From Propionibacteriaceae bacterium (GTDB lineage: Bacteria; Actinomycetota; Actinomycetes; Propionibacteriales; Propionibacteriaceae), in NCBI GenBank assembly GCA_031265875.1, contig JAISCA010000049.1:62001-126000 (forward strand): a stretch of DNA of 64,000 nt. The letters are read 5' to 3'. Below, piece by piece: positions 17,878 through 42,864 of this stretch (position 1 is its first letter; each line of letters opens with the position of its first letter). The translations under genes and the position numbers were made by a program. The notes beneath the pieces were generated by a model. The model saw only the letters and a list, made by a program, of their open reading frames with translations. It made no database searches and was not told the DNA's origin.

Positions 17878-18609
17878 CTAACCATTCGCTGTCTGGGGCC
17901 GGCCCCGCTCTCGGGCCGGCCCCAGGTCGGCCGTGGCGGCCACGGTGGCGGCGCCCCAGACCCGCTGGCCGGCGGCGCGCAGGGCCCGACTGGCCTCGGC
18001 CAGGCTGGCCCCGGTCGTGACGATGTCATCCAGTACCAGACAATGACCGCTCAGCCCGCCGGGCCGGGCCCGCCAGGCCTGATCCAGGTTGGCCCGGCGG
18101 CGGGCGGCGTCCAAACCGGATTGGTCGGCCACGGCCCGGGTCGGAGTCAAGACCGGGCAGACCCGCGTCCTCAGACCGGCGCCAGCCAAGCGACTGGCCG
18201 CCCGCCGGGCCAAGGCCAGACCGAAGTCGAAACCGCGTCGCCGCACGGCGGCGGCGGCCGACGGCACCGGCACCAGGCTGAGCGGCGGCCCCGACCCGGT
18301 CAGGTCCAGCTCCACCGCCAGCCCCTGGACGGCCTGGGCCAAGCGCTCCCCCAGCAGGGCGCATAGCTCCTGGCGGCCGCCGTCCTTGGCCGCCACGATG
18401 ACGGCGGCCAAGGGTCCGGCGTAGAGACCGGCCGACCACAGCGGCAGTCCGGCGCAGGCCAGACGCCAGCCCGGGGCCACCGGGCCGGTGCGAATGGCTT
18501 GACGACAGTCCAGACAGAGCCGCCCGGCCGGGCGACCGCAACCAGGGCAGGCCGCGCCCAAGCAGAGGTCGGCGGCGGCGTCGAGGAAAGGGCCGATGAA
18601 GCGTCGCAC
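17878..18609 (-). CDS. ComF-family phosphoribosyltransferase-like protein
   Basis: 243 residues from the GTG at 18609. An N-terminal Cys-rich segment (CLGAACPGCGRPAGRLCLDCR, two CxxC pairs) probably binds zinc. It is followed by a PRTase fold with the PRPP loop VLDDIVTTGASLAEASRAL near residue 195. ComF proteins are linked to DNA uptake in competent bacteria; in non-competent actinobacteria the role is unknown. The family sits between hpf and lpqB in mycobacteria. A GTG at 18696 is the alternative start. At 18609 CATAGT ends seven bases upstream, which fits a leaderless internal promoter. Confidence 0.8.
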   Translation of the reverse strand: MRRFIGPFLDAAADLCLGAACPGCGRPAGRLCLDCRQAIRTGPVAPGWRLACAGLPLWSAGLYAGPLAAVIVAAKDGGRQELCALLGERLAQAVQGLAVELDLTGSGPPLSLVPVPSAAAAVRRRGFDFGLALARRAASRLAGAGLRTRVCPVLTPTRAVADQSGLDAARRRANLDQAWRARPGGLSGHCLVLDDIVTTGASLAEASRALRAAGQRVWGAATVAATADLGPARERGRPQTANG

Positions 18610-18729
18610 ACCTGGGACTATGGGCCTATCGACCCCGGCCCGACGGCCGACTGAGGCGCCTGTGCATAAGCTCCCGCCAGCCTGTGCGTCGATCACCCGG
18701 CCTGGACTCCCCCGCCCACCGTCCTCGGT

Positions 18730-20472: not shown

Positions 20473-22070
20473 GGCGTCTCTCTCTGATCCGGCCCGGCCG
20501 ACGACGGCGCCCGCAGATCGGCGTCCTCCGGCACCAGGGGCAAGGGCGAGGCCGTCACCGCCTGATTCGGGCGCCTCGGCAAGGTGACGCGGAACTGGGC
20601 CCCTTGACTGGGCCGGCCCCAAGCGTGGATCGAACCCCGGTGCAAGTGGACGTCCTCCTGTGAGATGGCCAGGCCCAAACCGGTGCCGCCGATATGACGG
20701 GTCCGGGCCGGGTCGGCCCGCCAGAAGCGGCTGAACAGATGCTTGGCCTGATCGGCCGAGAAGCCGACGCCGTGGTCGCGCACGGCGATGGCCACGACCT
20801 CGGAGTCGGCCCTGACCGTGACGTCGATGGGCCGGCCTTCGGAATGCTCGATGGCGTTGGACAACAGGTTGCGCACCAAGCGGGCCACCCGCCGCACATC
20901 GACCTGGGCCAGGCAGGGCCCGTCGTCGTGATGGAAGACCACGTCGGCCCCGGCCGCCCGGCTGAGCTCGGCCAGGGCTGCGATCTCGCCTGTCACCAAT
21001 TCGACCAGATCGGCCTCGTCCAAGCTGAGGACGGCCGCGCCGGCGTCGAAGCGGGAGATCTCCAACAGATCGGCCAAGAGAGACTCGAAACGGTCCAGCT
21101 CTTGGCGCAGCAGGACGACGGCCCGCTGTTCCATCTGGCCCAGGGTTTGGCGGCCGTCGTACAACAGATCGGCCGCCATCCGCACCGTGGTCAAGGGCGT
21201 GCGCAACTCATGCGAGACGTCGGACACGAAACGCTGCTGCAGGCGCGACAGTTCCTCCAATTGCCCGATCCGTAATTGCAACTGGTCGGCCATGTGGTTC
21301 ATGGACCAGGCCAAGCGGGCCAGGTCGTCGGTCCCCCGCACCGGCATCGGCTGGGTCAACTCGCCCGAGGCCAGCCGTTCGGCGGCCTGACGGGCCACCC
21401 GGATCGGCCGCAAGGTCGAGCGGGCCACGACGTAGGCCACCACCGCCATGCCGATGACGACGACGGCGGCGCTCAGTCCCAAAGCGGTGTTGACCACGCG
21501 CAGGGTCTGGGCCTCCTGGGTCATGGGGAAGACGAAATAGACCCGCAGCCTGACCTGGCCGGTCTGACCCACCACGGTCGAACCGACCGCCAAGCCGGGC
21601 GCCGACTCCGAGCCGTCCAGGTAATGCACCCGCGTCGGCATCGCATGGACTTCGGTCGGATCGGCCTCGACGGCTTCCCGTAAGGCCGCTGGGATCGAGC
21701 TGCGGTCGAGTTGGAGTTGGGGCGACAGGGCCGCCACCGGAGTCATGATCCAGATGTAGTAGCGCTGACCGACCAGGCCCCGGGGAATGGCGTCGGCCGC
21801 GATCCGGACCACCACGTCGGAAGAGGTCAACTGTTCCACCCGCGACGAGCTGAGGGCCTGCTCGATCTGGTTGAGGGCGGCGTTGGCGTCGGTCAGGGCG
21901 GCTCCCTGGGCCCGCGTCACGACGCCGCCGGTGACCGAACGGAGCAGGAAGAGACCGGCCACCAAGATGACGACCAAGGTGCCGGCGATGGCCACGGCGA
22001 CCACCCTCAGGGTCAGCGAGGAGAGCCACCAACGCAACGGCGAGGCGCCCGCGACCGACCGGTCCGGCAT
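20469..22070 (-). CDS. mtrB: Sensor histidine kinase MtrB
   Basis: 533 residues. TM1 at about 20-46 and TM2 near 195-215 flank an extracytoplasmic sensor region, followed by HAMP, the H-box VSDVSHELRTPLTTVR, an N-box LVRNLLSNAIEHS and G-boxes DHGVGF and GGTGLGLAIS. MtrB phosphorylates MtrA and links cell-wall growth, division and osmotic stress. It begins three bases after mtrA ends and overlaps lpqB by four bases. Confidence 0.96.
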   Translation of the reverse strand: MPDRSVAGASPLRWWLSSLTLRVVAVAIAGTLVVILVAGLFLLRSVTGGVVTRAQGAALTDANAALNQIEQALSSSRVEQLTSSDVVVRIAADAIPRGLVGQRYYIWIMTPVAALSPQLQLDRSSIPAALREAVEADPTEVHAMPTRVHYLDGSESAPGLAVGSTVVGQTGQVRLRVYFVFPMTQEAQTLRVVNTALGLSAAVVVIGMAVVAYVVARSTLRPIRVARQAAERLASGELTQPMPVRGTDDLARLAWSMNHMADQLQLRIGQLEELSRLQQRFVSDVSHELRTPLTTVRMAADLLYDGRQTLGQMEQRAVVLLRQELDRFESLLADLLEISRFDAGAAVLSLDEADLVELVTGEIAALAELSRAAGADVVFHHDDGPCLAQVDVRRVARLVRNLLSNAIEHSEGRPIDVTVRADSEVVAIAVRDHGVGFSADQAKHLFSRFWRADPARTRHIGGTGLGLAISQEDVHLHRGSIHAWGRPSQGAQFRVTLPRRPNQAVTASPLPLVPEDADLRAPSSAGPDQRETP

Positions 22071-22073
22071 GGC

Positions 22074-22772
22074 TCAGACGCTCCCACCGGCCCGGTAGCC
22101 GACCCCCCGCACCGTCACGACGATCTCGGGATTGTCGGCGTCGCGTTCGATCTTGGCCCGTAGCCGCTGGACGTGGACGTTGACCAGGCGAGTGTCGGCG
22201 GCGTGACGATAGCCCCAGACCTGCTGCAAGAGCTGTTCCCGGCTGAAGACGTGGTCGGGCCGACGGGCCAGGGCCAGCAGGAGATCGAACTCCAGCGGCG
22301 TCAGATTGATCGGTTGGCCGTCCCGGCGCACCTGATGGGCGCCGGCGGCGATCATGATGTCGCCCACCTTGATGGTCTCGGCCTCGCTGGGGACCGGCCG
22401 CCTCAGGCGAGTCTTGATCCGGGCCACCAACTCGCGCGGTTTGAAGGGCTTGGCGATGTAGTCGTCGGCGCCGGCCTCCAAACCGTGCACCACGTCGGCG
22501 GTGTCTGACTTAGCCGTCAGCATGACGATGGGCACGCCCGACTCGGCCCTGATGTCCCGGCAGATGTCGACCCCGTCCCGTCCCGGCAACATCAAGTCGA
22601 GCAGCACTAAGTCCGGTTGACCGACCCGGAAGGCCTCCAGAGCCTGATCGCCGTGGGCGCACCAGATGGTGTCGTAGCCGCCCCGCTTCAGCACCAATTG
22701 CAGCATCTCGGCCAACGAGGCGTCGTCGTCGACGACCAAGACACGGCTGCGTGGGCCGCTCGAATCAGTCAC
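22074..22772 (-). CDS. mtrA: Response regulator MtrA
   Basis: 232 residues. An OmpR-type receiver domain (phospho-acceptor Asp59 in LVLLDLMLPGRDG; TAKS and KPFKPREL follow) is joined to a winged-helix DNA-binding domain (FSREQLLQQVWGYRHAADTRLVNVHVQRLRAKIE). The start is a GTG with GGAAGGA upstream. A possible -10 TAGACT lies 35-40 bases upstream (plus-strand 22807-22812). The mtrA-mtrB-lpqB group is one operon; the gene upstream on the same strand is the giant surface protein, separated by a strong terminator. Confidence 0.97.
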   Translation of the reverse strand: MTDSSGPRSRVLVVDDDASLAEMLQLVLKRGGYDTIWCAHGDQALEAFRVGQPDLVLLDLMLPGRDGVDICRDIRAESGVPIVMLTAKSDTADVVHGLEAGADDYIAKPFKPRELVARIKTRLRRPVPSEAETIKVGDIMIAAGAHQVRRDGQPINLTPLEFDLLLALARRPDHVFSREQLLQQVWGYRHAADTRLVNVHVQRLRAKIERDADNPEIVVTVRGVGYRAGGSV

Positions 22773-22879: not shown

Positions 22880-25800
22880 TCAGGCGGCGGCTTTGAGCCG
22901 GCGGCGACGCCAGTCGAGCAGACCGAGACCACCGGCCAAGAGCAGGACGGCCAAGCCGGCCCAGGCCGCCGGCAAGGTCGATCCGCCGCTCGGCACGGGC
23001 GGTGGAGGCGGCGGCGGTGGAGGCGGCGGCGTCAGGACGTTCTCCAGCTCGATGGTCAGCCGGTCGCCCGGATCGACCGCGATGGGTTGGTTCAGATCGA
23101 CCGGTTCGACGGGACCGAACTGGTTGACGGCGGTCATGGCGTAGGACCAGGTGTAGCCGGTGGCCTGACCGGCGCTGGACTCGGTCACGACGCAGTACAA
23201 AGCCCGGCTGGACTGGAATTGGAGGCTGGCGCTGGCCTGACCGGGCGGCACTTCGAGGACCTGGTCCACCACCGGGGAGCCGTCGTCGCGATCGGCGCAG
23301 CGCACCGCCAACTGGGCCGGGTCGGGCCTGATCGTCTGATCGGCCGTGGTCAGCTTGGTCAGGCTGACCTGAGCCAACCGGACGTAGTGATTGGTGACCT
23401 GGTAGACCACGTCTTGGCCGGTTGTGACGACGAAGGATTCACCCAGGTCAGCCGCCGGCCCAGGCTGACCGGCCTGGCTGGCGCTCAGGCTGTACGACCA
23501 TTCGACATCCTCACCGGCTCCGTTGTCCGGCTCGGTCACCTGGCAGGTCAGATCTCCTGGAGCCGTCAGATCGAGCGAGGCCGAGGTGGCGCCGGCCGGC
23601 AAGACCACCTCTTGGTTGATCAGGGCCGTACCGGCGGCGGACTCATAGGAGCACTCGACCACCAGTCGGGCTTGGCCGGGCCGCAGGCTGTCGTCGGCCG
23701 TGGCCTGCTTGACCAAGCTGAGGCGGGCCGTCGGCTGCCACTGGTTGACCAGCTCGCAGGCGACCTCGGCCTCATCCACGGTCGGCTCGATGGTGACCGA
23801 GCTGGCGGTCTGAGAACCGGGCACGATCACCGTGCCGGGCGAACAGTTCACCTGCTCCAGCCGCCAAGAGCCCGCCGCCGTGGGCGGCGGCAGAGTCTCG
23901 GCGATGACGTATTGGTAATGCTGGCCGGCGTCGTAGTCGGTGAAGAGGAAACCATCCGGCCAGGGCAAGCCCTGACCGCTGGGCAGGGCCGGGACCGACA
24001 GGTGGGCGGCGTCCAAGCTGGCCTCGGCCCAGTAGACCCGGCCGGTCGGCGTCAGGTCCGAGTTGTCCGTCCCAGCCAACTGGGTCAGGCTGTAGTCGAA
24101 GTCGACCTGTCCGCCGGGGAAGGCGTCGGCTGTCAGCCCGGCCGGATCGATGGTCTTGATCAGGTCGATACTGCCGACCGGCTGGAACCGGTTGACCAGG
24201 GTGCAGTCGGCGTTGTCTTCCGGCGAGAGCGGCTCGCTGCTGGTGGCGGTCCAGACGTCGGCCGAGACCTGGAGGATCTCCATCGCCACCTGGCGGGTGG
24301 CGCCGCCTGAGACCGGGCCGACCTCGCAGCTAGCTTGGACCAGGCTCCACTGGCCATGGGCCAAACCGCTGGAGGCGGTGTCCTCCGTCACCCGCAGGAA
24401 CCCAGCCGGACCACCGGTCTGACTGCTGTGGGAGGCCACCTGAACCGTCGTGGTCTGGGCCACAGGTAGGTTCAGTACGGCCGTGAAGCCGCCGTCCGAG
24501 TAGTCCACGACGAAGTCGAACTCCCCGTCCTCCCCCAGGGCCTGCTTGTGCACCCGCTGGTAAGGCTCCGGCGGAGGCGGCGGCAGGGCGGAGAAGGTGT
24601 TGTCGACCACGATGTCGATGTCGTCGCCGGCTAGGACGGTGAAGGGCTGGTCCAGACCCGGTTGGGAGGTCAAGGGCAGGCCGTGGTTGGTCACCGCCAT
24701 AGTGGGCGGGTCGGCGCTGTAGCCGGCGGCGGCGCCGTCGGCCGGCTCCGTCACCAGACAGGACAGGCTGTCGCCGGGGGCCTGGAAGGACTGGCTGGCG
24801 GCGGCCAGGCCGACGGCGACCGTGACCTGACCGGACAGCCGGGTCTGACCGGACTGGCTACAGGTCAGAGCGACCTGGGCGGGCTGGTCGCGCACGGTCG
24901 GGTCGGCGCTGGTGTGCTTGGTCAACCGCAGGGCGGCCGGTGGCGGCGGCGCCTGATAGGTGTTGTCGACCTCGAAGGCGACCTGGTCGCCCAGACCGAC
25001 CGCGAAGTCCTGTCCTAGATCCGGGCTGGGGCTGACGGCCTGGCCGTTCACGGTCAGGCTGGTCTGGTAGCCGGCGGTGACGCCGCTGGCGGCCCCGGTG
25101 GCGGTCTCGTCGACCCGGCAGGTCAGCGGCGCGAAGGCCTGGAAACCGGTCGAGGTCGAACCGGCGCCCGGCGGCAGGACCAGATCTTGGCTGAAGGCCT
25201 GACCGCTGCCGGACTCGACGCACTGATAGCTCAAGACAGCCGCCCCGGAGCGCAGCGTCAGATCGTCGCTGCCCCGCTTGACGATGGTCAAGCTGCCGCT
25301 CGGGGCCTCGACCCAGCGGTTGGTGAAGGTGCAACTGGCCTCAGGCGATCCCGCCGTCAGCTCCAAGGTGACCGCAGGGCCGGAGCGGGCCACGGTCTGG
25401 CCGCCCTGGCAGGTCACGTCCGCCACCTGCCAACCGCCCACGAAGGTGGCGGCAGGCAAAGACTCGGTGATGACGTACTGGTAGCGGCTCTGCCCGGTCG
25501 TGACCTCGAAACCAGCCGGCCAACTCGCTCCCGGGGTGGCCACCACGCCGCTGTGGGCGGAGGCGTCGACGCTGGCCGCGGCGACGGAGACCTGACCGGT
25601 CGGACTGGATTGACCAGCCAGATCGACGGCGTACTGAGTGACCGAATAGGAGAAATCGGCCGGGAAGGCGTCATAGGCCACCAGACCGGCCGGGTCGACC
25701 GTCTTGACCAATTGGATCTGACCGGCCGGAGTGAACTGATTGGTCACCAGGCAGTCGGCGGCGTCGCCTAGCCCCAGAGGCTGACTGGTCTGGGCCGTCC

Positions 25801-28800
25801 ACTGGTTAGATCCAGCCGGTCCAGGGCTGACCGTCATGGCTTGCTGCCAGACGCTGCCATCGGGCCGGGTGACCTGGCAGGACCCACCGGTCAAGGTCCA
25901 GACGCCGCCGGCGGCGGCCGGGTCCGGGACCGTCTCGGTCAAGCTGATGGAACCGGGCTGGTCGCTCCAGCCCGAGGCCACGGCGACGGCGGCGGCCGGG
26001 CCAGCCGTGACGGAGGCCAGGCTGAGCGGGGTCAAACCGGGCAGGTCGAGGTCGTAGGAGAAGACCCCGGAGCCGCCCAAGGCCAGCTTCCTGATCTGGC
26101 GCTGCGGCAACTGGTCGAAATCATTGCTGACGGCGAAGACGACGCTTTGGCCGGGGACGACCGTGAAAGCCTGACCCAGTTCGACTGGGGAGACCTGACC
26201 GGTCTGGTCGGTCAATTGGGCGCTGACCCTAGGCGCGTAGGCCGGCGCGGCCCCCGAGTCAGGCTCGGTCACCTGACAGGTCAGAGTCTGATCGGACAAG
26301 AAGACCTGGCTGGCCGAGGTTTGGCCGGGCGCGACTGTGACGGCGCCGTCGATCAAGGGCAGGTCAGCCGCGTCGACGCAACTGAGCGCCAACTGGGCCG
26401 GATCGGGCCGAGCCGTCAGGTCGCCCGTGGTGGCCTTGCTGACGGTGACCTGGGCCGGCGGAGTGTAGCCATTGGTGACCGTGAAAGTGACCTGGTCGCC
26501 CAAGGCGACGTCGAAGTCCTCGCCCAAGGCGGGGCTGGGCACGACCGGCTGACCGTTCAAGACCATGTCGACGGTGGCGCTCTGGCCGACCTGGGGACCG
26601 GCTCCGGTGGCCGTCTCGGTCACCTGACAGGTCAGGGCGGCGAAGCTCTGGAAGCCGGTCGAGACGCTGGCCTGACCGGCCGGTAGGACCAGGCTCTGGC
26701 TGAAGGTGACGGGCTGGCCTTGGACGATCTCGGTGCATTGGTAGTCCAAGATGGCCGAGCCCGGTCGCAAACCGGTGTCGACACTGCCGATCTTGACCAG
26801 GCTGAGGCTGGCGACCGGGGCTTCGACCCACTGGTTGGTGAAGGTGCAATCGGTCTCCGGCTGGCTGGCGGTCAGCTCGACCGTCACCGCCGGGCCTGAC
26901 TGCCAGTCCGTGACCGGCTGCGCGCCGGCACAGCTGACCGCTGAGACATGCCAGGCCCCCAGCACCGTCGGAGCCGGCAGGACCTCGCTGATGACGTACT
27001 GGTAACGCCCGCCGCTGGCGGTCGTGACCTCGAAACCGGCCGGCCAACCGCTGTCCGGTTGGACCGGTTGATCGCTCAGATGGTCGGCCGTCATCTCGAC
27101 GCTGGCGCTGGCCGCTAGGCCGGTGGCGCTGGTCTGCCCCGACCCGTCGACGGCGTACTGAGTCACGTTGTAGCTGAATTGGGCCGGCAGGGCGTCGTCT
27201 GGCGCCAGGCCGTCCGGGCTGACGGTCTTGTGCAATTGGATCCGCCCGGCCGGGGTGAACTGGTTGACCAAGAGACAGTCGGCCGCCGCGCCCGCCGGCA
27301 GGTCCTGGCTGGTTAGGGCCGTCCACTGGTTGGAACCGGGCCCAGGCGTCAGCGTCAATTCCAGCGCGCTGACGGCGCCGCTAGCGTCGGTCACCTGGCA
27401 GGAGGCCGTCTGGGCCGTCCAAACGCCACCGGCCACAGCCGGGTCCGGCACGGTCTCGACGATCTGGAGGGGGCCGGCGGCCTGACTCCAATTCGTCGCC
27501 ACCAGACCGGTGGCGCCTGAGGCCAGACTCAGGCCAGTCACACTCTGGGCCTGGCTCTGACCGGGCCAAGCGATCTCGAAGTCGAATTGGCCGGCGCCAC
27601 CCAGGGCTTGCTTCGAGACCTGCCGCCGGGGCAGGTTCTGGAACTGGTTGGCGACGGTGAAGGTCAATTGGTCGCCTCGGGCCACGGCGAAGGCCTGCCC
27701 CAAGCTGATCGGCTGGACGCCGCCTGACCCGTCGCGCAACTCGGCGCTGGCGCTGACGGCGTACGCCTGGCCTTGGCCGCCGCTGGCTTCGGTCACGACG
27801 CAAGACATCGGTTGATCGGCCTGGAACAGGTGCTGGTCCTGGGACAGCCCCGGGGCCACCTCGACCGTGCCGTCGACCAGAGTCTGACCGTCTCCATCTT
27901 GGCAATCGACATTCAAGATGGCCCGTTCCGGCCGGATCGTCTGGTCGGCGCTGGTCAGCTTGACCACCGTCACCTGGGCCGGTGGCGGCGGCGTGTAGTA
28001 GTTGTTCAGTTCGACCCTGATGTCATCGCCTTGGCTGACCGGGAAGTCCCAGTTGAGGTCGAGCGACGCTCCCGGCAGACCGTGGTTGGTCAAGGCCAAG
28101 CGATAGTCCCAGGTCACGCCGCTGGCCGGATCGGCCCCATTGTTCGATTGCAATTCCTGGACCTGGCAGATCAGATCGGTCACGCTGGTGAAGCTGATCG
28201 AAGCGCTGTCCCGCCCTTCCGGCAGGACCAACTCCCGCCGGGTGGCAGCCCCGGAGGCGGCGTCCCGACAGACCAAGTCGACCAGGGCCGGATTCGGCCG
28301 CAGAGCCAGATCCAAGGTGGCGGTCTTGACCAGGCTGAGGCTGGCGGCCGGCACCCAGCGATTGACGAACTGGCAGTCGGCCACCGGGGTGGCGGCGCTC
28401 AATTCGATGACGGCGGTGGCGCCCGTGACCGAGCTGAGAACGGCGCCCGGCTGGCAGGTCACAGCCTCGACCTGCCAGGCCCCGGCCGCGGTCGGAGCCG
28501 GCAGGCTCTCGCTGATCTGGTACTGGTAAGTCGTGGTCTGATCGGAGACTGGGAAACCCTCCGGCCAGGGCAGGCCGCTGGCGCCGGGTTGGATCGGCAC
28601 AGCGGTCAAGCCCAGGCTGGGATCGGGCAGCGCCACCTGGCCGGAGTAGATCCGCCCGGTCGGAGCCAGGGCGCCGCCGCGGGGACCGGACAATTGGGTG
28701 ATGCTGTAGTCGAACTGGGCCGGCAATCCGGCCGCCGGATCGGGCCCGGTCTGATCGGCCGTCTTGGTCAAATTGATCCGGCCGGCCGGCGTGAAGGTGT

Positions 28801-31800
28801 TGACCAGAGTGCAATCAGCTTGCTCGGTCGGAGCCAACTGATCTGGGCTGGTGGCGCTCCAGTGCCTGAGGTCGGCTGAATCTTGCTCGATGGTCAAGTC
28901 CACGGTCCAGCTGGAGCCGCCCGTGATCGAGCGCACCAGGCAGCTGGCCCCGGTCAGACTCCACTGGCCGGTGTCAGACTCCGGCATGATCTCGTCCAAG
29001 CTGATCAGGCCGGACTCTTCGACGATGGCCTCCGGCTGGCTGACGACCACCTCGACCGGTTGGCCGGGAGCGATCTGACCGGTCGTCTGGTCGAACTGCC
29101 AAGGCACGTCAGTCGCGGGGAACTCACCGCTGATCTGGAAGCTGCCCTGAGCCCCCACCGTCTGCTTCAGCACCCGTCGGGTCGGCGCTGGGGCGTAATT
29201 GTTGCCGACGGTGAACTCGACCGACTGGCCCCGGCCGATCTGGAAGGGCTGGCCCAGGTTGAGCCCGACCAAGGCGGGGCCGTCCGGCAACAGACGACCC
29301 GTCACCTGAGCGTAGTTCAAGGCCAGGCCCGGGCCGGTCCCGTCGACCAGCTCGGTCACGACGCAGGAGACCGGCTCGGAGCCGGGATCGAAATCGGCCC
29401 CGGTCGCGGTCTGACCGCTGGGCGGGGCCCAGGTCAAGGAGCCGTCCAGCACGGTCTGGCCCGACTGGTTGGAGCAGACCACACCCAGGACCGGCGCGGT
29501 GGCCGGTTGGTAGGTTCCGATCACGTCCTTGACCAGACGCAGGTGAGTCGGCTCGGGCGTGTAGACGTTGTCCACCGTCACGACCACTTGTTGGCCTTCT
29601 ACGACGGTGAAGCTGGCCGAGAAGGGATCGCTCCCGCTATCGGGCAGGGGGGACTCAACTCCGTCGACGGAGATCCTGGCACTGGCCGAGGCGATGACGC
29701 CGTCACCCGCCCCGGTGGCGCCACCCTGGTCCGGGTCCTCCGTCACGGTGCACTGCAAGGTGGGATAGCCGCTCTGGAAGGAGATCGAGCCCTGCGGCAC
29801 ACCCGCCGCCACGGTCACACTGGTCCCGAACAGGGTGTCATACGGCTGGTCCGCCTGACAGATCAGGACCAGCTCGGCCGCCTCCGGCCGCAAGGAGGTG
29901 TCGGCCGTGGCCGTCTTGACCACAGTCAAGGTGGCGGCCTGGAGCCAGGTGTTGGTGAAGGTGCAATTAGCGCTGGCGATATCTTCAGTCAACTCGATCG
30001 TGACGCTACCGCCATCCAGGTCGGCGTCGCCGACCTGGGCCGAGCCGCAATCCACCCCTGACAGCCGCCACTGACCGGCCGCCGTCGGGGCAGGGGCGGT
30101 CTCGCTGATGACATAGCGGTAGACCGGTCCACCGGTCAGGCTGACGGGGAAGCCCTCCGGCCAGCTCGGGTCGGCCGGGCCGGGGACGGCTTTGGGATCG
30201 TTGGGGTCGGTCGGGCCGGTCTCGGCCCGGGCCGTCCAGCTGCGGCCGGTCGGAGCCAGCTGGTCAGCCGCCGGGCCCGACTGCTGGACGACGGAGAAGC
30301 TGAAATCAGCCTTGCCGCCGGGGTAGGCGTCGTCGGCCAAGCTGGGGTCGTTCAACACCGTGTTCTTGGCGATTTGGATGCGCCCGGCCGGCACGAACTG
30401 ATTGACGATGTGGCAGTCGACACTGTCTTCCCAGGCAAAGACATCGTCTCCGCTATAGATCTGCTCCGGGTAGACACTGGTTTGCTTGAGCAGTTCAACC
30501 ACCGTGGTCGAACCTTCATGCTGGACCTCGCAATAGGCCCGGCTGGCCCGCCAAACACCGCTGGTCGAGCTGGGCAGGGTCTCGGTCAGGCGGACGTCGA
30601 AGGCGGCTGGTGGGGAGTCCGGCCAGTCCTCCTGGTCGATCTGACCGATCAGGGCCTGGCTGCCGTCCGACACCGCCAGGCCGGTCTGGCTGACGGGCAA
30701 CCATTCGCCGTCCTGCCCGACCTCGGCTGTGATGTCGAAGGACCCGTCGGCCCCTTGGGCCTCTTTCCAGAAACGCCAAGGCGTGGCGGAGGGCTGGGGC
30801 CGGACGATGTTGTTGACGGCCACGATCACGTTGTCGCCGGGATTGAGCGAGAAAGGCTGTCCCAAGACCAGCGGCACGACTTCAGTGGTCGATCCGATGA
30901 CACCGCTGAGGCTGGCCTGGGTGACGACCTCGTAGCCTGACTCGACGCCGCTGGCGGGCTCGGTCACGACGCAGGTGACGGGATAGTGGGCCTGGTACTG
31001 AGCGGTGTTGGCGGCCCGCCCGGACGCCACCAGCAGGTCGCCGCCCACGGCCGGGTAGTCGGAAGGGCTGACGCAGTTCAGGTTGAGCTGAGCCGGGGCC
31101 GGCCTGAGAGCGCTGTCGGACACGGTCTGCTTGGTCAAACCGATCTGGACCGTGGGAGCGCTGTAGGTGTTGTCGACCGTGAAGACCACGTCGTCGCCCA
31201 GGGCGACGGTGAAGGGCTCATCCAGTGCAGGTGTCCAACTGACCGGTTGGCCGTGGTTGGTGGCCGACAGGCTGACCCCGGGTGTGACGTAAGCCGGCGC
31301 CCCGGTGGCCTGTTCGGTCACAGTGCAGGTGGTGTCGGCGCCGACCTGGAATTGATCCGAGCCAGTGCTTTGACCTGACTCCACCTCGATGTCCTGAGCG
31401 AAGATGACGGCGGGTTGGCCGGACAGCGTGTACTCACAGCGGTACTCGATGATGGCCGAGCCGGTTCTGAGCGAGCTGTCGTCGGTGGCGTTCTTGACGA
31501 TGGTCAGTTTCGCCCCCGCCACCCACTGATTGGTGAACTGGCAGTCCACCACGGGCTGGGCCGCCGTCGGTTCGACGGTGACCGAGCCGGCCGCCAGGTC
31601 GGTCGCGACCGTCGGGGCGGCGCAACTGATGTCGCCGACCCGCCAGACCCCGGCGGCCTGGCCCGGCGGGGTCTGCTCGGTGATGACGTATTGGTACCGG
31701 GTCTGGGTGGTGCTGACCGGGAATCCGGCCGGCCAAGCCCCCGCGGGCAAGGCTGAGACCTGCTGATGGGCGCTGGGAGTGGTCCGGGCCGAGGCCGTCC

Positions 31801-34800
31801 AAGACTGTCCGGTGGGGGCCAGTTCAGACTCCGGATCGGTCAGGTCTTGGGCCCACTGGACCACGTTGTAGCCGAAGACGGCGCCGCCTTGATAGAAGGC
31901 GTCGTCTGGGACCAGACCGGCCTCGTCCACCGTCTTGGTCAGATCGATCCGCCCGGCCGGGGTGAAAGCGTTGGTCAAGTCACAGCTCACATTGTCGGTC
32001 GGCTCCAGCAGCTGGTCGCCCGAGTCAGCCAGCCAACGGTTGGGTTGCCCAGAGTCTTGAGTCAGGTTCAGAGTCATCTGACGACTAGCCCCGCTGGTCA
32101 TGGCGCTGACCTGGCAGACCGCCGCGGTCAACTGCCAGACGCCCCCGGCCTGAGCCGGGTCGGGCACGGTCTCGCTCAACTGGATGGCGCCAGCCGCGGT
32201 CACCGGCAGTCCGCTCAACTGGACCACGGCCTCCGTGCCGTCGGCTGGGACTTCGACTGTCTGATCGACCTTGTCTTGACCGGGGAATTCGATCTGGAAG
32301 TCGAAGCTGGCCTGAGGTCCGTCCACTCCCTTCCAAACCGAGCGCTCCGGCAGTGGGGCGAAGTCATTGTCGACCGTGGCCACCACGACATCGCCCCGTT
32401 CGACAGTGAAGGGCTGGCCCAGCCCGACTGGGGGATCGGGCGTCCAAGGCTGGCCGTTCTTGGTCAGGCTGAGCCGGGCCGAGGGCTGCCATGGCGCGCT
32501 CTGGCCGGCCGCCGGCTCGTCGATCTGACAGGTCAGGGGCTGGTCGTAGGGCGGGTCGCCGTACTGGTAGGTCTGGGTCAGGCTGGACTCGCCCGCCGGC
32601 ACGCTCAGGGCGTCGTCTATGACGGTGGCCCCAGCGGCCTGACAGGTCAGGCTGAGCTGGGCCGGGTCCGGCCGGATCGAACGGTCGGCGGTGGTGTTCT
32701 TGACCAGACTGAGGCTGGCCGGCGGCGGCGCCGTGTAACTGTTGACGGCGGTGATGACGACCTCGTCGCCCAGATCGATCCCGATGGGCTGGTCCAGTGC
32801 GATGGCCGGACCGGGCTGGCCATGGTTGGTCATGGACAGTGCGACCGACCAGTCGACTCCGGGGTTGGCGCCGCTTTGTTCTTCCGGCTCGGACAACTGA
32901 CAGGTCAAAGGCAGGGTGCTGCCGAACTCGGTGTCGGCCTGGCCCAGACCGGCCGCGACGGTGACGCTATTGCCGAACAAGACATCGCCGTCGCCGTCGA
33001 CCTCGTCCCGGTAGGCGCAGAAGAAGTCGAGTTGGGCCGGGGCGCCCCTCAGATCGGTGTCGGAGCTGGCCTGTTTGACGATGGTGACCAAGGCCAACGG
33101 CAGCCAGCGGTTGGTGAAGGTGCAGCTGACGTCGGGGATGGCGCTGGTCAGCTCGAATTCGACGGTGGTCTGGCCTTGGCTGGAGGCCACCGGCTGACCG
33201 GTGGTCCGGTCGACGCATTGGGCCGAAACGACCTGCCAGTTGCCGCGGGCCGTCGGGGCCGGCGTCGACTCCTCGATGACGTAGTGGTAGCGCGGCGCCC
33301 CGGACGGGTCGGAGACCAGGAAACCATCGGGCCAGGGCGAGGCGGTGGAGTCAGGTTGGGCCGCCACGGCCTGGCCGACCTGGCTCGGAGTGACGGCGGC
33401 GGTCAGACCGTAGGTGGCCAGCACGGCGTTGGCCTGGGGCTGGGGCAGGACCAACTGTTGCAGGACGGTGTACGCGAAATCGGCTTGGACGGTCCCGTCC
33501 TGGGCCGGCTGGAAGGCGTCGGCCACGACTAGGCCATCGGCTAGGACCTGTTTGTTGACGGCGATCTGACCGGCCGGGCTGAAGGTGTTGGTGATTAAAC
33601 AATCAGCATTTTCAGTGGCGGTCAGAGCTCTAGACAGCTGGGCCGTGAAAGAACCGTCCTGCCCCTGACTGATGGTCATGGGCACCGACACCGCCGTGCT
33701 CAGATCGGGGTTCGGCCCATTGGTGACGGCGCAATTGCCCTGGGCCAGGGTCCAAGTCCCGTCGCTGACCGGCACTTGCTCGGTCACACTGATGAGACCG
33801 GCGTGGGCGGCCACGCTACCGGTCCGCTCCCGGACCAGTTGTGAGGTGCCATCGTCGGTCACGGTCACATCGTCGACGTCGATAGGGGCCTCGCCCGGGA
33901 AAGTGACCTCGAAATCGAATTCGCCGTCTGAGCCGATGACCTCCTTCCACAGCCGCCGGAAAGGAAAGTTCGTAGGCTCCGGACCGGGAGCCTGGCGGGC
34001 GTTGGTGTAGGTGCAGACCACGCTCTGACCGGCCCCGGTCAGAGTCACCGTGGTGGGATCGAGGCCGCTGGTGCGGTGGGTGTCGCCGGCGTCGTTGCTG
34101 AAGACGGCCTGACCGCCGCCCGAGGTGGTGCAGACCGGTGAGTCGGGGGTCAGCCAGTCGGCCGTGGTGGGCAGGGTCTCTTGGAAGGACCAGGCGGTGC
34201 CGACGGCCCGCACGAAGCTCTGCGAGACGATCTGGCCCGGCTTGGTCGCGGTCAGAGAGAAGTCGTTAGTGCCGTCGCCGTTGCTGTCGGCGTAGGAGAT
34301 GTCACCGTCGAAACGGAAGACGCCTTGACCGATGGTGTCGGCGGCCAGGACTTTCTGCACGGTGATGGTGCCGGCGTCGACATGGTGGCCGATGGCGTAG
34401 TAATAGCAGTAGACGTGGCGTGAGCCACTGTTGAAAGCCACTTTCTCCACGTTGTCGCCGTTGACGGCGTCGTAGGCGCAGCGCAGGGCGGCGAAGGAGA
34501 GCTCCGGATAGTACCCGGTGGTGTCGACCGGGCGGGGATCGGTCGGTTTGCCGCCTTGGGCCCACAGGCTGCCGCGCTGGGCGGTCGTGGTCTCGCGGTC
34601 CAAGGTCACAGTCACGGCGCCGGGGACGGTGTTGCTGCCGACCGGGCGGCCCTGGCTGTCCAACTGGGGCACCGAGTCGACCGTGGTGACGGTGGCGGTG
34701 GCGCCGGAGACATAACTCAAGTAGTAGCTGGCCACGGTCTTCGAGACCATGCCCGAGCCGATCGTGAACTGGAGTCCCGGCAGGGGGCGGCAGTGGTCGG

Positions 34801-35128
34801 CGCTCATGCCCGCGTTCTCCGGACCCGGTTCGACCGCGTTGCCGGCCTGATATTTCGAATCGGGGCCGAGGTCTTGCAGTGACTCTTGGATGTTGTTCCG
34901 GGCCCGGTTGGCCTGAACGTCCGAGTAGTCGTCGCAGACCACGCCGACGAAGGTGACGGACAAAGATCCGGTGGGCGGTCGCGGGTTGACCTGGGCCGCC
35001 TCGGCTTGGGGCAAGACCGCCGAGGGCCCCAAACCGACCCCGGTCAGAACCAGACCGAGCACCGCCGCTCCCAAAGTCAGCCGCCGCCCGACTCCCCCAG
35101 TCCGCGTCGTCCGTTGCTCCAGACTCAT
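22880..35128 (-). CDS. Giant secreted multi-module surface protein (28 DUF5979/CnaB-like modules)
   Basis: 4082 residues from the ATG at 35128, which has a perfect AAGGAGG seven bases upstream. Residues 1-44 are a signal peptide (cleavage expected after Ala44). A non-repetitive head (45 to about 390) holds several Cys and a prealbumin/SpaA-like segment near its end. Residues about 390-4031 are seven tandem super-repeats of 510-540 residues, each made of four modules A-B-C-D, 28 in total. Each module has Lys in the first strand, Glu in the middle, Asn in the last strand and a Cys pair. A Pro11 run, then LPAAW, a hydrophobic stretch and RRRR end the protein. This is the design of a rigid, isopeptide-stabilised surface stalk such as an adhesin or S-layer-like fibre. 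No sortase or pilus gene is nearby. Ligand unknown. Confidence 0.9.
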   Translation of the reverse strand: MSLEQRTTRTGGVGRRLTLGAAVLGLVLTGVGLGPSAVLPQAEAAQVNPRPPTGSLSVTFVGVVCDDYSDVQANRARNNIQESLQDLGPDSKYQAGNAVEPGPENAGMSADHCRPLPGLQFTIGSGMVSKTVASYYLSYVSGATATVTTVDSVPQLDSQGRPVGSNTVPGAVTVTLDRETTTAQRGSLWAQGGKPTDPRPVDTTGYYPELSFAALRCAYDAVNGDNVEKVAFNSGSRHVYCYYYAIGHHVDAGTITVQKVLAADTIGQGVFRFDGDISYADSNGDGTNDFSLTATKPGQIVSQSFVRAVGTAWSFQETLPTTADWLTPDSPVCTTSGGGQAVFSNDAGDTHRTSGLDPTTVTLTGAGQSVVCTYTNARQAPGPEPTNFPFRRLWKEVIGSDGEFDFEVTFPGEAPIDVDDVTVTDDGTSQLVRERTGSVAAHAGLISVTEQVPVSDGTWTLAQGNCAVTNGPNPDLSTAVSVPMTISQGQDGSFTAQLSRALTATENADCLITNTFSPAGQIAVNKQVLADGLVVADAFQPAQDGTVQADFAYTVLQQLVLPQPQANAVLATYGLTAAVTPSQVGQAVAAQPDSTASPWPDGFLVSDPSGAPRYHYVIEESTPAPTARGNWQVVSAQCVDRTTGQPVASSQGQTTVEFELTSAIPDVSCTFTNRWLPLALVTIVKQASSDTDLRGAPAQLDFFCAYRDEVDGDGDVLFGNSVTVAAGLGQADTEFGSTLPLTCQLSEPEEQSGANPGVDWSVALSMTNHGQPGPAIALDQPIGIDLGDEVVITAVNSYTAPPPASLSLVKNTTADRSIRPDPAQLSLTCQAAGATVIDDALSVPAGESSLTQTYQYGDPPYDQPLTCQIDEPAAGQSAPWQPSARLSLTKNGQPWTPDPPVGLGQPFTVERGDVVVATVDNDFAPLPERSVWKGVDGPQASFDFQIEFPGQDKVDQTVEVPADGTEAVVQLSGLPVTAAGAIQLSETVPDPAQAGGVWQLTAAVCQVSAMTSGASRQMTLNLTQDSGQPNRWLADSGDQLLEPTDNVSCDLTNAFTPAGRIDLTKTVDEAGLVPDDAFYQGGAVFGYNVVQWAQDLTDPESELAPTGQSWTASARTTPSAHQQVSALPAGAWPAGFPVSTTQTRYQYVITEQTPPGQAAGVWRVGDISCAAPTVATDLAAGSVTVEPTAAQPVVDCQFTNQWVAGAKLTIVKNATDDSSLRTGSAIIEYRCEYTLSGQPAVIFAQDIEVESGQSTGSDQFQVGADTTCTVTEQATGAPAYVTPGVSLSATNHGQPVSWTPALDEPFTVALGDDVVFTVDNTYSAPTVQIGLTKQTVSDSALRPAPAQLNLNCVSPSDYPAVGGDLLVASGRAANTAQYQAHYPVTCVVTEPASGVESGYEVVTQASLSGVIGSTTEVVPLVLGQPFSLNPGDNVIVAVNNIVRPQPSATPWRFWKEAQGADGSFDITAEVGQDGEWLPVSQTGLAVSDGSQALIGQIDQEDWPDSPPAAFDVRLTETLPSSTSGVWRASRAYCEVQHEGSTTVVELLKQTSVYPEQIYSGDDVFAWEDSVDCHIVNQFVPAGRIQIAKNTVLNDPSLADDAYPGGKADFSFSVVQQSGPAADQLAPTGRSWTARAETGPTDPNDPKAVPGPADPSWPEGFPVSLTGGPVYRYVISETAPAPTAAGQWRLSGVDCGSAQVGDADLDGGSVTIELTEDIASANCTFTNTWLQAATLTVVKTATADTSLRPEAAELVLICQADQPYDTLFGTSVTVAAGVPQGSISFQSGYPTLQCTVTEDPDQGGATGAGDGVIASASARISVDGVESPLPDSGSDPFSASFTVVEGQQVVVTVDNVYTPEPTHLRLVKDVIGTYQPATAPVLGVVCSNQSGQTVLDGSLTWAPPSGQTATGADFDPGSEPVSCVVTELVDGTGPGLALNYAQVTGRLLPDGPALVGLNLGQPFQIGRGQSVEFTVGNNYAPAPTRRVLKQTVGAQGSFQISGEFPATDVPWQFDQTTGQIAPGQPVEVVVSQPEAIVEESGLISLDEIMPESDTGQWSLTGASCLVRSITGGSSWTVDLTIEQDSADLRHWSATSPDQLAPTEQADCTLVNTFTPAGRINLTKTADQTGPDPAAGLPAQFDYSITQLSGPRGGALAPTGRIYSGQVALPDPSLGLTAVPIQPGASGLPWPEGFPVSDQTTTYQYQISESLPAPTAAGAWQVEAVTCQPGAVLSSVTGATAVIELSAATPVADCQFVNRWVPAASLSLVKTATLDLALRPNPALVDLVCRDAASGAATRRELVLPEGRDSASISFTSVTDLICQVQELQSNNGADPASGVTWDYRLALTNHGLPGASLDLNWDFPVSQGDDIRVELNNYYTPPPPAQVTVVKLTSADQTIRPERAILNVDCQDGDGQTLVDGTVEVAPGLSQDQHLFQADQPMSCVVTEASGGQGQAYAVSASAELRDGSGGVQPISLGQAFAVARGDQLTFTVANQFQNLPRRQVSKQALGGAGQFDFEIAWPGQSQAQSVTGLSLASGATGLVATNWSQAAGPLQIVETVPDPAVAGGVWTAQTASCQVTDASGAVSALELTLTPGPGSNQWTALTSQDLPAGAAADCLLVNQFTPAGRIQLHKTVSPDGLAPDDALPAQFSYNVTQYAVDGSGQTSATGLAASASVEMTADHLSDQPVQPDSGWPAGFEVTTASGGRYQYVISEVLPAPTVLGAWHVSAVSCAGAQPVTDWQSGPAVTVELTASQPETDCTFTNQWVEAPVASLSLVKIGSVDTGLRPGSAILDYQCTEIVQGQPVTFSQSLVLPAGQASVSTGFQSFAALTCQVTETATGAGPQVGQSATVDMVLNGQPVVPSPALGEDFDVALGDQVTFTVTNGYTPPAQVTVSKATTGDLTARPDPAQLALSCVDAADLPLIDGAVTVAPGQTSASQVFLSDQTLTCQVTEPDSGAAPAYAPRVSAQLTDQTGQVSPVELGQAFTVVPGQSVVFAVSNDFDQLPQRQIRKLALGGSGVFSYDLDLPGLTPLSLASVTAGPAAAVAVASGWSDQPGSISLTETVPDPAAAGGVWTLTGGSCQVTRPDGSVWQQAMTVSPGPAGSNQWTAQTSQPLGLGDAADCLVTNQFTPAGQIQLVKTVDPAGLVAYDAFPADFSYSVTQYAVDLAGQSSPTGQVSVAAASVDASAHSGVVATPGASWPAGFEVTTGQSRYQYVITESLPAATFVGGWQVADVTCQGGQTVARSGPAVTLELTAGSPEASCTFTNRWVEAPSGSLTIVKRGSDDLTLRSGAAVLSYQCVESGSGQAFSQDLVLPPGAGSTSTGFQAFAPLTCRVDETATGAASGVTAGYQTSLTVNGQAVSPSPDLGQDFAVGLGDQVAFEVDNTYQAPPPPAALRLTKHTSADPTVRDQPAQVALTCSQSGQTRLSGQVTVAVGLAAASQSFQAPGDSLSCLVTEPADGAAAGYSADPPTMAVTNHGLPLTSQPGLDQPFTVLAGDDIDIVVDNTFSALPPPPPEPYQRVHKQALGEDGEFDFVVDYSDGGFTAVLNLPVAQTTTVQVASHSSQTGGPAGFLRVTEDTASSGLAHGQWSLVQASCEVGPVSGGATRQVAMEILQVSADVWTATSSEPLSPEDNADCTLVNRFQPVGSIDLIKTIDPAGLTADAFPGGQVDFDYSLTQLAGTDNSDLTPTGRVYWAEASLDAAHLSVPALPSGQGLPWPDGFLFTDYDAGQHYQYVIAETLPPPTAAGSWRLEQVNCSPGTVIVPGSQTASSVTIEPTVDEAEVACELVNQWQPTARLSLVKQATADDSLRPGQARLVVECSYESAAGTALINQEVVLPAGATSASLDLTAPGDLTCQVTEPDNGAGEDVEWSYSLSASQAGQPGPAADLGESFVVTTGQDVVYQVTNHYVRLAQVSLTKLTTADQTIRPDPAQLAVRCADRDDGSPVVDQVLEVPPGQASASLQFQSSRALYCVVTESSAGQATGYTWSYAMTAVNQFGPVEPVDLNQPIAVDPGDRLTIELENVLTPPPPPPPPPPPVPSGGSTLPAAWAGLAVLLLAGGLGLLDWRRRRLKAAA
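23035..24568 (-). repeat. Super-repeat 7 of 7
   Basis: Residues about 3521-4031. Modules open QRVHKQALG (A), GSIDLIKTI (B), RLSLVKQAT (C) and QVSLTKLTT (D). It runs into the Pro11 spacer and C-terminal anchor. Confidence 0.85.
24569..26110 (-). repeat. Super-repeat 6 of 7
   Basis: Residues about 3007-3520. Modules open RQIRKLALG (A), GQIQLVKTV (B), SLTIVKRGS (C) and ALRLTKHTS (D). Confidence 0.85.
26111..27635 (-). repeat. Super-repeat 5 of 7
   Basis: Residues about 2499-3006. Modules open RQVSKQALG (A), GRIQLHKTV (B), SLSLVKIGS (C) and QVTVSKATT (D). At protein level it is the closest relative of super-repeat 6 (shared SYxVTQYAVD and PAGxIQLxKTV). Confidence 0.85.
27636..29185 (-). repeat. 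Super-repeat 4 of 7
   Basis: Residues about 1982-2498. Modules open RRVLKQTVG (A), GRINLTKTA (B), SLSLVKTAT (C) and QVTVVKLTS (D). Confidence 0.85.
29186..30795 (-). repeat. Super-repeat 3 of 7
   Basis: Residues about 1445-1981. Modules open WRFWKEAQG (A), GRIQIAKNT (B), TLTVVKTAT (C) and HLRLVKDVI (D); the D module has lost the usual D-xx-xRP motif. Confidence 0.83.
30796..32350 (-). repeat. Super-repeat 2 of 7
   Basis: Residues about 927-1444. Modules open RSVWKGVDG (A), GRIDLTKTV (B), KLTIVKNAT (C) and QIGLTKQTV (D). Confidence 0.85.
32351..33965 (-). repeat. Super-repeat 1 of 7 (modules A-B-C-D)
   Basis: Residues about 389-926 of the giant protein. Module A opens RRLWKEVIGSDGEFDFEV, B opens GQIAVNKQV, C opens LVTIVKQAS, D opens LSLVKNTTADRSIRP. 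Boundaries are approximate. Confidence 0.85.
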
Positions 35129-36246: not shown

Positions 36247-37251
36247 GTGACCTGGGACGGACTGGCCGATTGTTTAGCGGCCTCGACCGCCGCCTTGGCG
36301 GTGGGCGGCCTGCTCGACCTCTGGTGGGGCGACCCCAGGCGGGGACCCCATCTGGTGGTGGGGCTGGGCCGGCTGATCGGAGCGCTCGACCGGCGCTGGC
36401 GTAGACCCGGCTTGACTCCGCTTCAGGCCCGCCGCCGGGGCCGGGCCCTGGTCGGATCGGTCTGCGCCGTGGCCGGTCTAGGCTCAGCCGGGCTGCTGAC
36501 GGTCTGTTACCTGTTGTCACCGGCGTTGGGAGGCGTCGTCGAGGCCTTGCTGGTCTGGCAGGTCTTGTCCTGCAAGAGCCTGCGCGACCATGCCCTGGCC
36601 GTCCAGACCGCCCTGACCAGCGGCGACCTGGCTCAGGCCCGCCACGCCGTCGGCCAGATAGTGGGCCGTGACACCGACCGTTTGGACGCCGCCGGAGTGG
36701 CCCGGGCCGGGGTCGAGTCGGTGGCGGAGAGCACCACCGACGGCGTCGTGGCGCCACTGTTCTACCTCGCCCTGGGCGGCGCCCCCCTGGCTTGGACGCA
36801 CAAGGCCGTCAACACCATGGACTCCATGATCGGTCACCGCGACCAGCGTTACATCGACTTCGGCCGGGCGGCGGCCCGGTTGGACGACGCGGCCGGTTGG
36901 CTGCCGGCCCGCTGGGCCGCTCGGTTGATGATCCGGGCGGCCGGCCTGATCGGCTTGGACTCGGCCCAGGCCGCCCGCGTCTGGCGGCGCGACGCCAACC
37001 TGCCGGACTCCCCCAACGCCGGCCAGACCGAGGCCGTCTGCGCCGGCGCCCTGGGCCTGGCCTTGGGCGGACCGGCTTGGTACGGCGGCCGGTGGGAGGA
37101 CAAACCGACGCTGGGCCAGGCCGACCGGGCCATCGAGGCGACCGACCTGAGCCGGGCCTGTCGGCTCAGCCTGACCACGGCCGGTCTGGCCGGATTGGCC
37201 GGACTGGTCTGGCGAGCACTGCTCTGGGGAGCGCTCCATGCCCTGGCCTGA
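36247..37251 (+). CDS. cobD: Adenosylcobinamide-phosphate synthase (CobD/CbiB)
   Basis: 334 residues, integral membrane enzyme that attaches the aminopropanol arm in cobalamin synthesis. Family landmarks are GDPRRGPHLVVGLGRLIGALDRR near the N-terminus, SCKSLRDHALAVQTAL, VGRDTDRLDAAGVARAGVESVAESTTDGVVAPLFY (the most conserved block) and KAVNTMDSMIGHRDQRYIDFG. A GTG start at 36247 gives the family N-terminus. It is followed 110 bp later by cobC, which makes the linker substrate. Neither carries a visible B12 riboswitch, unlike the convergent operon. Confidence 0.93.
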   Translation: MTWDGLADCLAASTAALAVGGLLDLWWGDPRRGPHLVVGLGRLIGALDRRWRRPGLTPLQARRRGRALVGSVCAVAGLGSAGLLTVCYLLSPALGGVVEALLVWQVLSCKSLRDHALAVQTALTSGDLAQARHAVGQIVGRDTDRLDAAGVARAGVESVAESTTDGVVAPLFYLALGGAPLAWTHKAVNTMDSMIGHRDQRYIDFGRAAARLDDAAGWLPARWAARLMIRAAGLIGLDSAQAARVWRRDANLPDSPNAGQTEAVCAGALGLALGGPAWYGGRWEDKPTLGQADRAIEATDLSRACRLSLTTAGLAGLAGLVWRALLWGALHALA

Positions 37252-37377
37252 GCCCACGCCTTCGTTCCACCGTCGTCCAGGGAGATCCGCCAGGCCCTGG
37301 CCTGAACACGACCCGCCGACCGTGGGCTCCGCTCGGCCGACCGCGCCCTGTCCGGTGTGCCATGCCCTGGTCTGAGC
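37236..37377. repeat. Three degenerate copies of the cobC 5' end
   Basis: CCATGCCCTGG-Y-CTGAGC occurs at the end of cobD (37236-37253) and at the start of cobC (37360-37377). A mutated copy, CCAGGCCCTGGCCTGAACACG, begins at 37290. All would read MPW(P/S)E if started. Confidence 0.5.
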
Positions 37378-38405
37378 ACGGCGGCGACCACTGGTCGATC
37401 GGCCCGATCGAACTCGACTTCTCGGTCAATCTCAACCCGCTCGGCCTGCCGGCGGCTGTCCGGGCCGCCCTGGTCGATCAGGTCGACCATTTCGCCGCCT
37501 ACCCCGACCCCAAGACTCGGGTCCTGCGCACGGCCCTGGGCCAGTGGCACGGCGTCGACCCCCAGTGGATCGTCTGCGGCAACGGCGCGGCCGACCTGAT
37601 CTACCGCCTGGCCCAAGCCGTCCGGCCGGCTCAGGGATTGGTCTTGGCCCCGACCTTCTCCGAGTACGAGCGGGCCATCCGCCTGGCCGGCGGGAAGGTG
37701 GTCCATCACCAGTTGACGGCGGCTAACGACTTCAGGGTCGGGGCCGACCTGCTCGACCGGGTCCAACCGGGTTGCCAGTTGGCGGTGGTCTGTCAGCCCA
37801 ACAACCCGACCGGCCGACTGGCCGATCCGGACCTGCTGATGGCCTTGGCCCGGCGCTGCCGCAGTGTCGGCGCCCTGCTGCTGGTGGACGAGTGCTTCCT
37901 GCCTTTCAGCGACGGCCCTTCCCTGATCGACCGCTTGGACGACCACCCCAACCTGGTCGTCCTGCGCGCCTTCACCAAGCTCTACGCCATGGCCGGGCTG
38001 CGCCTGGGCTACCTGGTGACGGCCCAACCCGACCTGCTCGACCGGCTCCGGGCCTGGACCCCGCCCTGGACCGTCTCGGCCGCCGCCGAGGCGGCCGGCC
38101 TGGCCGCCCTCGATCTGGGCCCTAGCTGGATCGAAACCACCCGCCGGACCGTGGCCGATCTGCGCCAGTCCCTGACCGCCGGTCTGAGCGCCCTCGGCCT
38201 GACCGTGACGGACAGCCAAGCCAACTACGTCCTAGCCCGCGCCGCCCACCCCTTGGCCCAGTCCCTGGCCGCCCGCGGCCTGCTGGTGCGCGACTGCTCC
38301 AACTTCATCGGCCTGGACTCCCACTACCACCGTTTCGCCGTCCGTCCCGCCGCAGAGCAGGACCGTCTCCTGACCGTCCTAGCCCAGGTCCTGGGCTCTT
38401 CGTAA
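37362..38405 (+). CDS. cobC: CobC/CobD-type PLP enzyme (L-threonine-O-3-phosphate decarboxylase family)
   Basis: 347 residues. Class I/II aminotransferase fold with the N-terminal HGGD motif (SEHGGDHWSIGPIELDFSVNLNPLG) that separates this cobalamin branch from HisC. The PLP lysine lies in FTKLYAMAGLRLGY near residue 210, and PNNPTGRL supplies the cofactor Asn. It produces (R)-1-aminopropan-2-ol phosphate for cobD, directly upstream. The ATG at 37362 is chosen because the HGGD motif must be close to the N-terminus. A HisC function cannot be excluded but is much less likely in this context. Confidence 0.88.
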   Translation: MPWSEHGGDHWSIGPIELDFSVNLNPLGLPAAVRAALVDQVDHFAAYPDPKTRVLRTALGQWHGVDPQWIVCGNGAADLIYRLAQAVRPAQGLVLAPTFSEYERAIRLAGGKVVHHQLTAANDFRVGADLLDRVQPGCQLAVVCQPNNPTGRLADPDLLMALARRCRSVGALLLVDECFLPFSDGPSLIDRLDDHPNLVVLRAFTKLYAMAGLRLGYLVTAQPDLLDRLRAWTPPWTVSAAAEAAGLAALDLGPSWIETTRRTVADLRQSLTAGLSALGLTVTDSQANYVLARAAHPLAQSLAARGLLVRDCSNFIGLDSHYHRFAVRPAAEQDRLLTVLAQVLGSS

Positions 38406-38498
38406 TCAATCACGCGATTGGGCGGTTGCGACTGGTTCTTCGGCCTGTCGCGGGTCGCAGGCCCCCGGTCGGCGGCGGGCACGGACGCGAGCGGCCGG

Positions 38499-41790: not shown

Positions 41791-41793
41791 CGC

Positions 41794-42738: not shown

Positions 42739-42772
42739 GTGTGCTCCATTTCTTCCGCCGGGCCCAGGCGAC

Positions 42773-42806
42773 AAAAAATGCGGTTCCGCCGCAGCAGACC
42801 GCATTT
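42773..42806 (-). terminator. Riboswitch expression platform: intrinsic terminator
   Basis: On the minus strand AAATGCGGT (42806-42798) pairs with ACCGCATTT (42784-42776) over a 13-base loop and is followed by a T-run (42778-42773). It lies between the riboswitch and the btuF ribosome site, as expected for transcription-terminating control. Confidence 0.85.
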
Positions 42807-42864
42807 CCTGAACTGATCGCCTGTCCTGCCCGGCACCCATACTCGTGAGGTTGTCGCAGGACTA

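Follow-up and report, generated by a model that had tools for sequence, protein, structure and literature searches.

The gene described here, from a gut-type actinobacterium, encodes a 4082-residue surface protein in which seven tandem copies of a four-module block, A-B-C-D, follow one another in an order that is kept in every copy and lies far beyond chance. We read this protein, with a probability of about 0.8, as a single-chain fibrillar adhesin whose braced stalk, grown stepwise to seven quartets, would present a small N-terminal head.

Results

Gene and overall layout

The gene is an intact open reading frame on the minus strand of the window (the whole stretch of 64,000 nucleotides that was analysed), running from an ATG at 35128 to a stop at 22880; a GTG 19 codons upstream of this ATG is a possible alternative start. 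Its product consists of a signal peptide, a head of ~207 residues, a single module h, seven A-B-C-D quartets, a Pro-rich linker and a transmembrane tail (Table 1). The signal peptide contains RR, a hydrophobic stretch and AEAA before QVNP, with a putative cleavage site after residue 45. An earlier note on this DNA had described a surface protein, which is backed by the signal peptide, the C-terminal transmembrane segment with its Arg tail and the SpaA_4/DUF5979 modules. The ~345-residue head of that note did not hold as one unit and resolved into the ~207-residue domain and the isopeptide-type module h. Its count of 28 modules stands for the seven quartets, and module h brings the total to 29.

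Table 1. Features of the giant gene, in positions of the window.
Feature	Position	Strand	Basis
Whole gene, 4082 aa	22880..35128	-	Open reading frame; 4079-aa ortholog in second species
Signal peptide, residues 1-45	34994..35128	-	Sequence; kept in ortholog
Head domain, residues 46-252	34373..34993	-	Aligned homologues from seven genomes
Module h, about residues 253-384	33977..34372	-	SpaA_4 match (own-genome search); h HMM
Quartet 1 (A1 B1 C1 D1)	32360..33976	-	Landmarks, ortholog alignment, leave-one-quartet-out HMMs
Quartet 2	30806..32359	-	Landmarks, ortholog alignment, leave-one-quartet-out HMMs
Quartet 3, most diverged	29195..30805	-	Landmarks, ortholog alignment, leave-one-quartet-out HMMs
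Quartet 4	27641..29194	-	Landmarks, ortholog alignment, leave-one-quartet-out HMMs
Quartet 5	26117..27640	-	Ortholog alignment, HMMs, AlphaFold2 model (mean pLDDT 91.5)
Quartet 6, closest to quartet 5 (54% mean identity)	24593..26116	-	Ortholog alignment, HMMs, quartet tree
Quartet 7	23033..24592	-	Landmarks, ortholog alignment, leave-one-quartet-out HMMs
Pro-rich linker, TM segment, RRRR tail, stop	22880..23032	-	Sequence, GGSTLPAAW + TM

Directly downstream and in the same direction lie mtrA-mtrB-lpqB-comF-like genes (17878-22772, minus); mtrA was the neighbour checked in the second species, where it is also downstream in the same direction. Elsewhere in the window, cobalamin-type genes (CobD-like, aminotransferase, CobQ-like) adjoin an ABC importer that reads from its sequence as iron or B12 type (36247-42840). 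A 772-aa protein whose C-terminal half is repetitive (FNTxGGxVSF-type) is encoded at 48024-50342 on the plus strand, in the stretch of lowest G+C in the window (0.60).

A strict four-module period

Modules were delimited at cysteine and Asn landmarks, which yielded 28 modules of 116-159 residues, and were typed with one profile HMM each for A, B, C and D from which the tested quartet had been left out. Each of the 28 fell into its predicted type, and the order ABCD recurs seven times with no exception, which rules out chance periodicity and bears out the seven tandem quartets of preserved order that had been proposed for the 4082-residue frame. The strongest lag in a BLOSUM self-comparison was 508 residues, with more peaks at 1028/1056 and 1536/1565, in agreement with the suggested period of ~520 residues. 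Quartets measured 1524-1617 bp, as against an estimate of about 1.55 kb, and the seven quoted openings of the A modules are all present in the sequence.

The cysteines follow the same period. Six of the 62 lie in the head region, and the other 56 are distributed as exactly two in each of the 28 modules. The spacing of the pair depends on module type (A 39-44, B 26-31, C 34-39, D 34-38), as does the position of the second cysteine, which stands just before the final Asn in A and B and just before the catalytic Glu in C and D. The four types are thus separable, but they are not all unlike, as the earlier note had supposed: C and D score 34-86 bits on each other's HMMs, whereas the cross-scores of A and B are low (5-17 bits), so that a quartet is made of A, B and two sister modules rather than of four unrelated ones. 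Identity between quartets is 35-54%. For modules A, B and C, quartets 5 and 6 are each other's closest relatives; for D they are not. Exact DNA repeats of at least 25 bases are absent from the gene.

Module chemistry and fold

The HMM search, for which the earlier note had proposed DUF5979 and CnaB models, returned two families above their curated cut-offs. Pfam matched SpaA_4 (PF24514), which A and B resemble, over 12 stretches (2.4e-49; whole-protein score 167 bits, cut-off 27.3) and DUF5979 (PF19407), which C and D resemble, over 11 stretches (2.7e-33; 115 bits, cut-off 25). Both are families of intramolecular isopeptide domains with Lys, Glu and Asn as bond residues, and disulphides are prevalent in SpaA_4 (PMC12617251). 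Stalk domains of this CnaB/transthyretin-like kind have Lys on their first strand, a Glu catalyst and Asn or Asp on their last. The giant protein has the same triads. Among 62 aligned modules (28 of the giant, 28 of its ortholog and six of short forms described below), Lys, Glu and both Cys were invariant in 62/62 and Asn was found in 61, the remaining one having Asp; module h is SpaA-like and likewise has Lys, Glu, Asn and a Cys pair. This conservation indicates that each module probably carries a Lys-Asn isopeptide bond, with Glu as the catalyst. What sets the giant apart from known domains of the two families is the fixed four-module block and the invariant Cys pair in every module.

Structure prediction of one quartet, also proposed beforehand, gave an AlphaFold2 model of quartet 5 with a mean pLDDT of 91.5. 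The solved structures nearest to this model were GAS T-antigens, PitA pilins, the B. anthracis TIE protein and a Mobiluncus adhesin (5u5o/5u6f); the last matched with Z 10.1 and carries disulphide, isopeptide and ester bonds. Z values of about 10 over one or two domains suffice for the fold class, not for a closer relation. A sequence search of the PDB with the quartet profile gave no credible match, its sialidase matches being weak.

An ortholog with the same seven quartets

The ortholog, of 4079 residues and 72% identity, comes from a second species of the genus, and its seven quartets match those of the giant one to one. The ortholog-bearing genome is a MAG, Propionibacteriaceae bacterium isolate Gsp477_bin63; for a sister bin of Gsp477, the lower termite Glyptotermes is given as the source (PMC11707648). 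In the quartet tree, every quartet pairs with its own ortholog (support 100/100), which means that the seven copies predate the split of the two species. Across 28% amino-acid divergence the modules have changed neither in order nor in number, even though the quartets drifted to their present level of identity, a pattern suggestive of selection acting on length or order.

The protein occurs in 2/19 genomes of the genus. A tblastn search of the stretch 5' of mtrA, run on seven more genomes of the genus, turned up neither the giant nor the genes that adjoin it upstream, and in samples of 198 family and 396 phylum genomes the quartet profile detected full quartets in these two species alone. The giant's own genome also encodes two further large surface proteins (L023:7855-14109, 2084 aa; L024:4758-12464, 2568 aa), which have one DUF5979 match each and VPATG/LAQTG-type C-terminal motifs; the 2084-aa protein also has DUF11-type repeats. 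Neither showed a quartet, and they are not copies of the giant.

Periscope-type proteins vary in length through near-identical repeats whose number differs between strains. In the comparison of the two species the giant does not look like this type, since its quartets are 35-54% identical, long exact DNA repeats are missing and the number is seven in both species.

The head domain

An alignment of head homologues from seven genomes contains four invariant Cys, which suggests disulphides, together with a conserved FCY/YCY motif and W-x-QGG. Neither Pfam nor NCBIfam gave a credible match to the head, a profile of the thioester adhesin domain (TED), the hallmark of which is a reactive Cys-Gln thioester, did not match it, and its predicted model was poor (pLDDT 48). 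It is better conserved than the stalk: identity to the ortholog is 85% in the head and 58-84% in the individual stalk modules, and dN/dS (NG86) is about 0.16 in the head against 0.38 in the stalk, values that are affected by synonymous saturation. We infer an adhesive role for the head only from this conservation and from its position. The full-length head was found in the two species only among 294 genomes of the order, and searches of plasmids and of viral contigs returned none. The head defines an unnamed actinobacterial family that is worth naming.

Short relatives and the growth of the stalk

The earlier note had proposed a search for homologues with other quartet numbers, and this search found short forms with a single A-B-C. 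Two genomes from another family of Actinomycetes (G504, 794 aa; G897, 747 aa) encode proteins that share the head (47-49% identity), module h and then one each of A, B and C, an order assigned with the HMMs of the giant's modules. Unlike the giant, these proteins have no D, are unrepeated and end in an LAxTG-like sorting signal (LAFSG or IAATG followed by a transmembrane segment). A protein of genome G980 combines head and h with two modules matching A and B and an LPFTG end. In genome G1078 a different N-terminal domain precedes head and h, which are followed by SpaA-type modules weakly matching A/B and by LPNTG. In genome G841 an h-like module ends a multi-repeat protein (L074), the matched stretch of which contains an in-frame TGA.

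These forms make up an apparent growth series: head-h-A-B (666 aa), head-h-A-B-C (747-794 aa) and head-h-(A-B-C-D)x7 (about 4080 aa). All quartets share a single origin relative to the A-B-C of the short relatives (support 100/99), and this origin and the closeness of quartets 5 and 6 agree with growth by duplication of whole quartets, as had been proposed. The sequences support as the simplest history one in which an ancestor of the form head-h-A-B(-C), at the later stage head-h-A-B-C, would have duplicated C to give C and D, and the whole quartet would then have been amplified, reaching seven copies before the split of the two known species. That quartets 5 and 6 are not closest in D possibly reflects a later local exchange or uneven rates. 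The grouping of C3 with the C modules of the short forms may be long-branch attraction and was set aside. With this series, the idea that domain duplication is how giant adhesins grow can be tested within one family.

Discussion

The sequence has three features of a fibrillar adhesin, namely a secretion signal, a 29-module stalk and a C-terminal transmembrane segment. The signal peptide would direct export of the protein, and the C-terminal segment would tether it to the membrane. Its 29 CnaB/SpaA-type modules, each presumably locked by a disulphide and a spontaneously formed Lys-Asn isopeptide bond, would form a stalk that resists protease and shear and that lifts the head above the cell envelope, where the head would act as the binder and a surface as its presumed ligand. 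The pilin RrgB spans 115 A over three axial positions (PMC3132780), that is ~3.8 nm per module, so 29 modules placed end to end would extend to roughly 110 nm; a fibre of over 100 nm, as first suggested, is therefore plausible.

The residues before the transmembrane segment are GGST-LPAAW in the giant and GGST-LAQIW in the ortholog; an LPxTG/LAxTG motif is absent there from both, and neither matched a sorting-signal family. If these residues nevertheless formed an unusual sortase motif (GGST-L-P/A-x-x-W), the protein would be released or polymerised as a pilin-like or wall-linked subunit rather than stand as a membrane-tethered fibre. LPFTG, LAFSG and IAATG do occupy the same place in short relatives, and the genome has five sortase-domain matches, one of them above the class E cut-off. 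We nevertheless consider the sortase reading unlikely, given that the T-G is kept in neither species and that the open reading frames read around the giant gene include no sortase gene. All short relatives with complete ends have a recognisable sorting motif, by comparison with which that of the giants appears decayed; the C terminus of the giants is most simply read as a plain membrane anchor.

The great size and repetitiveness of the protein, with equal module number in two species, would also suit a structural coat or S-layer-like component, with the stalks packed laterally against each other and a head that is no binder. We regard such a coat as improbable, because the head is the best conserved part and because a protein present in so few genomes of the genus is unlikely to be a general coat protein. 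An origin of the seven ordered quartets in misassembly or in ongoing homologous exchange has a negligible chance. The gene does lie in fragmented assemblies of many contigs, but the lack of long exact repeats and the recovery of seven quartets in two separate assemblies, as fully supported one-to-one pairs, rule out an assembly artefact. Within the preferred reading of a fibrillar adhesin, we also offer a more speculative idea, less likely to be right than wrong by a wide measure: the quartet may have been selected as a mechanical or geometric period, for instance with a constant twist or a hinge every ~15 nm; whole quartets would then be the unit of growth, in a giant fibre that had given up sortase anchoring in favour of simple attachment to the membrane.

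There are good descriptions of large isopeptide stalks in the literature (PMC10619420, PMC12617251). A search of open-licence papers found no report of a four-module period, in line with the statement of the earlier note that the quartet is undescribed. The closest known system is the giant adhesin of Mobiluncus mulieris, with 7651 aa and 51 Ig-like domains (PMC10619420). Like it, the present protein is an actinobacterial single-chain giant with an Ig-like stalk, many isopeptide domains and disulphides. The Mobiluncus adhesin, however, has ester-bond domains and LPxTG, and its number of isopeptide domains differs by about 20 between species (PMC10619420), whereas our protein has CnaB/SpaA-type modules only, no LPxTG, a strict four-module period and equal module number in both species. 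A two-module precedent for the higher-order arrangement is provided by CLIPPER/CLIPPER_2 (DUF11/DUF7507) stalks, in which two isopeptide families often alternate (PMC12617251); those domains have a CnaA-like fold and alternate as two families, in contrast to the period of four types seen here. The stalk chemistry is thus already known, and what is likely new is the strict four-domain period and its probable growth from a three-domain ancestor.
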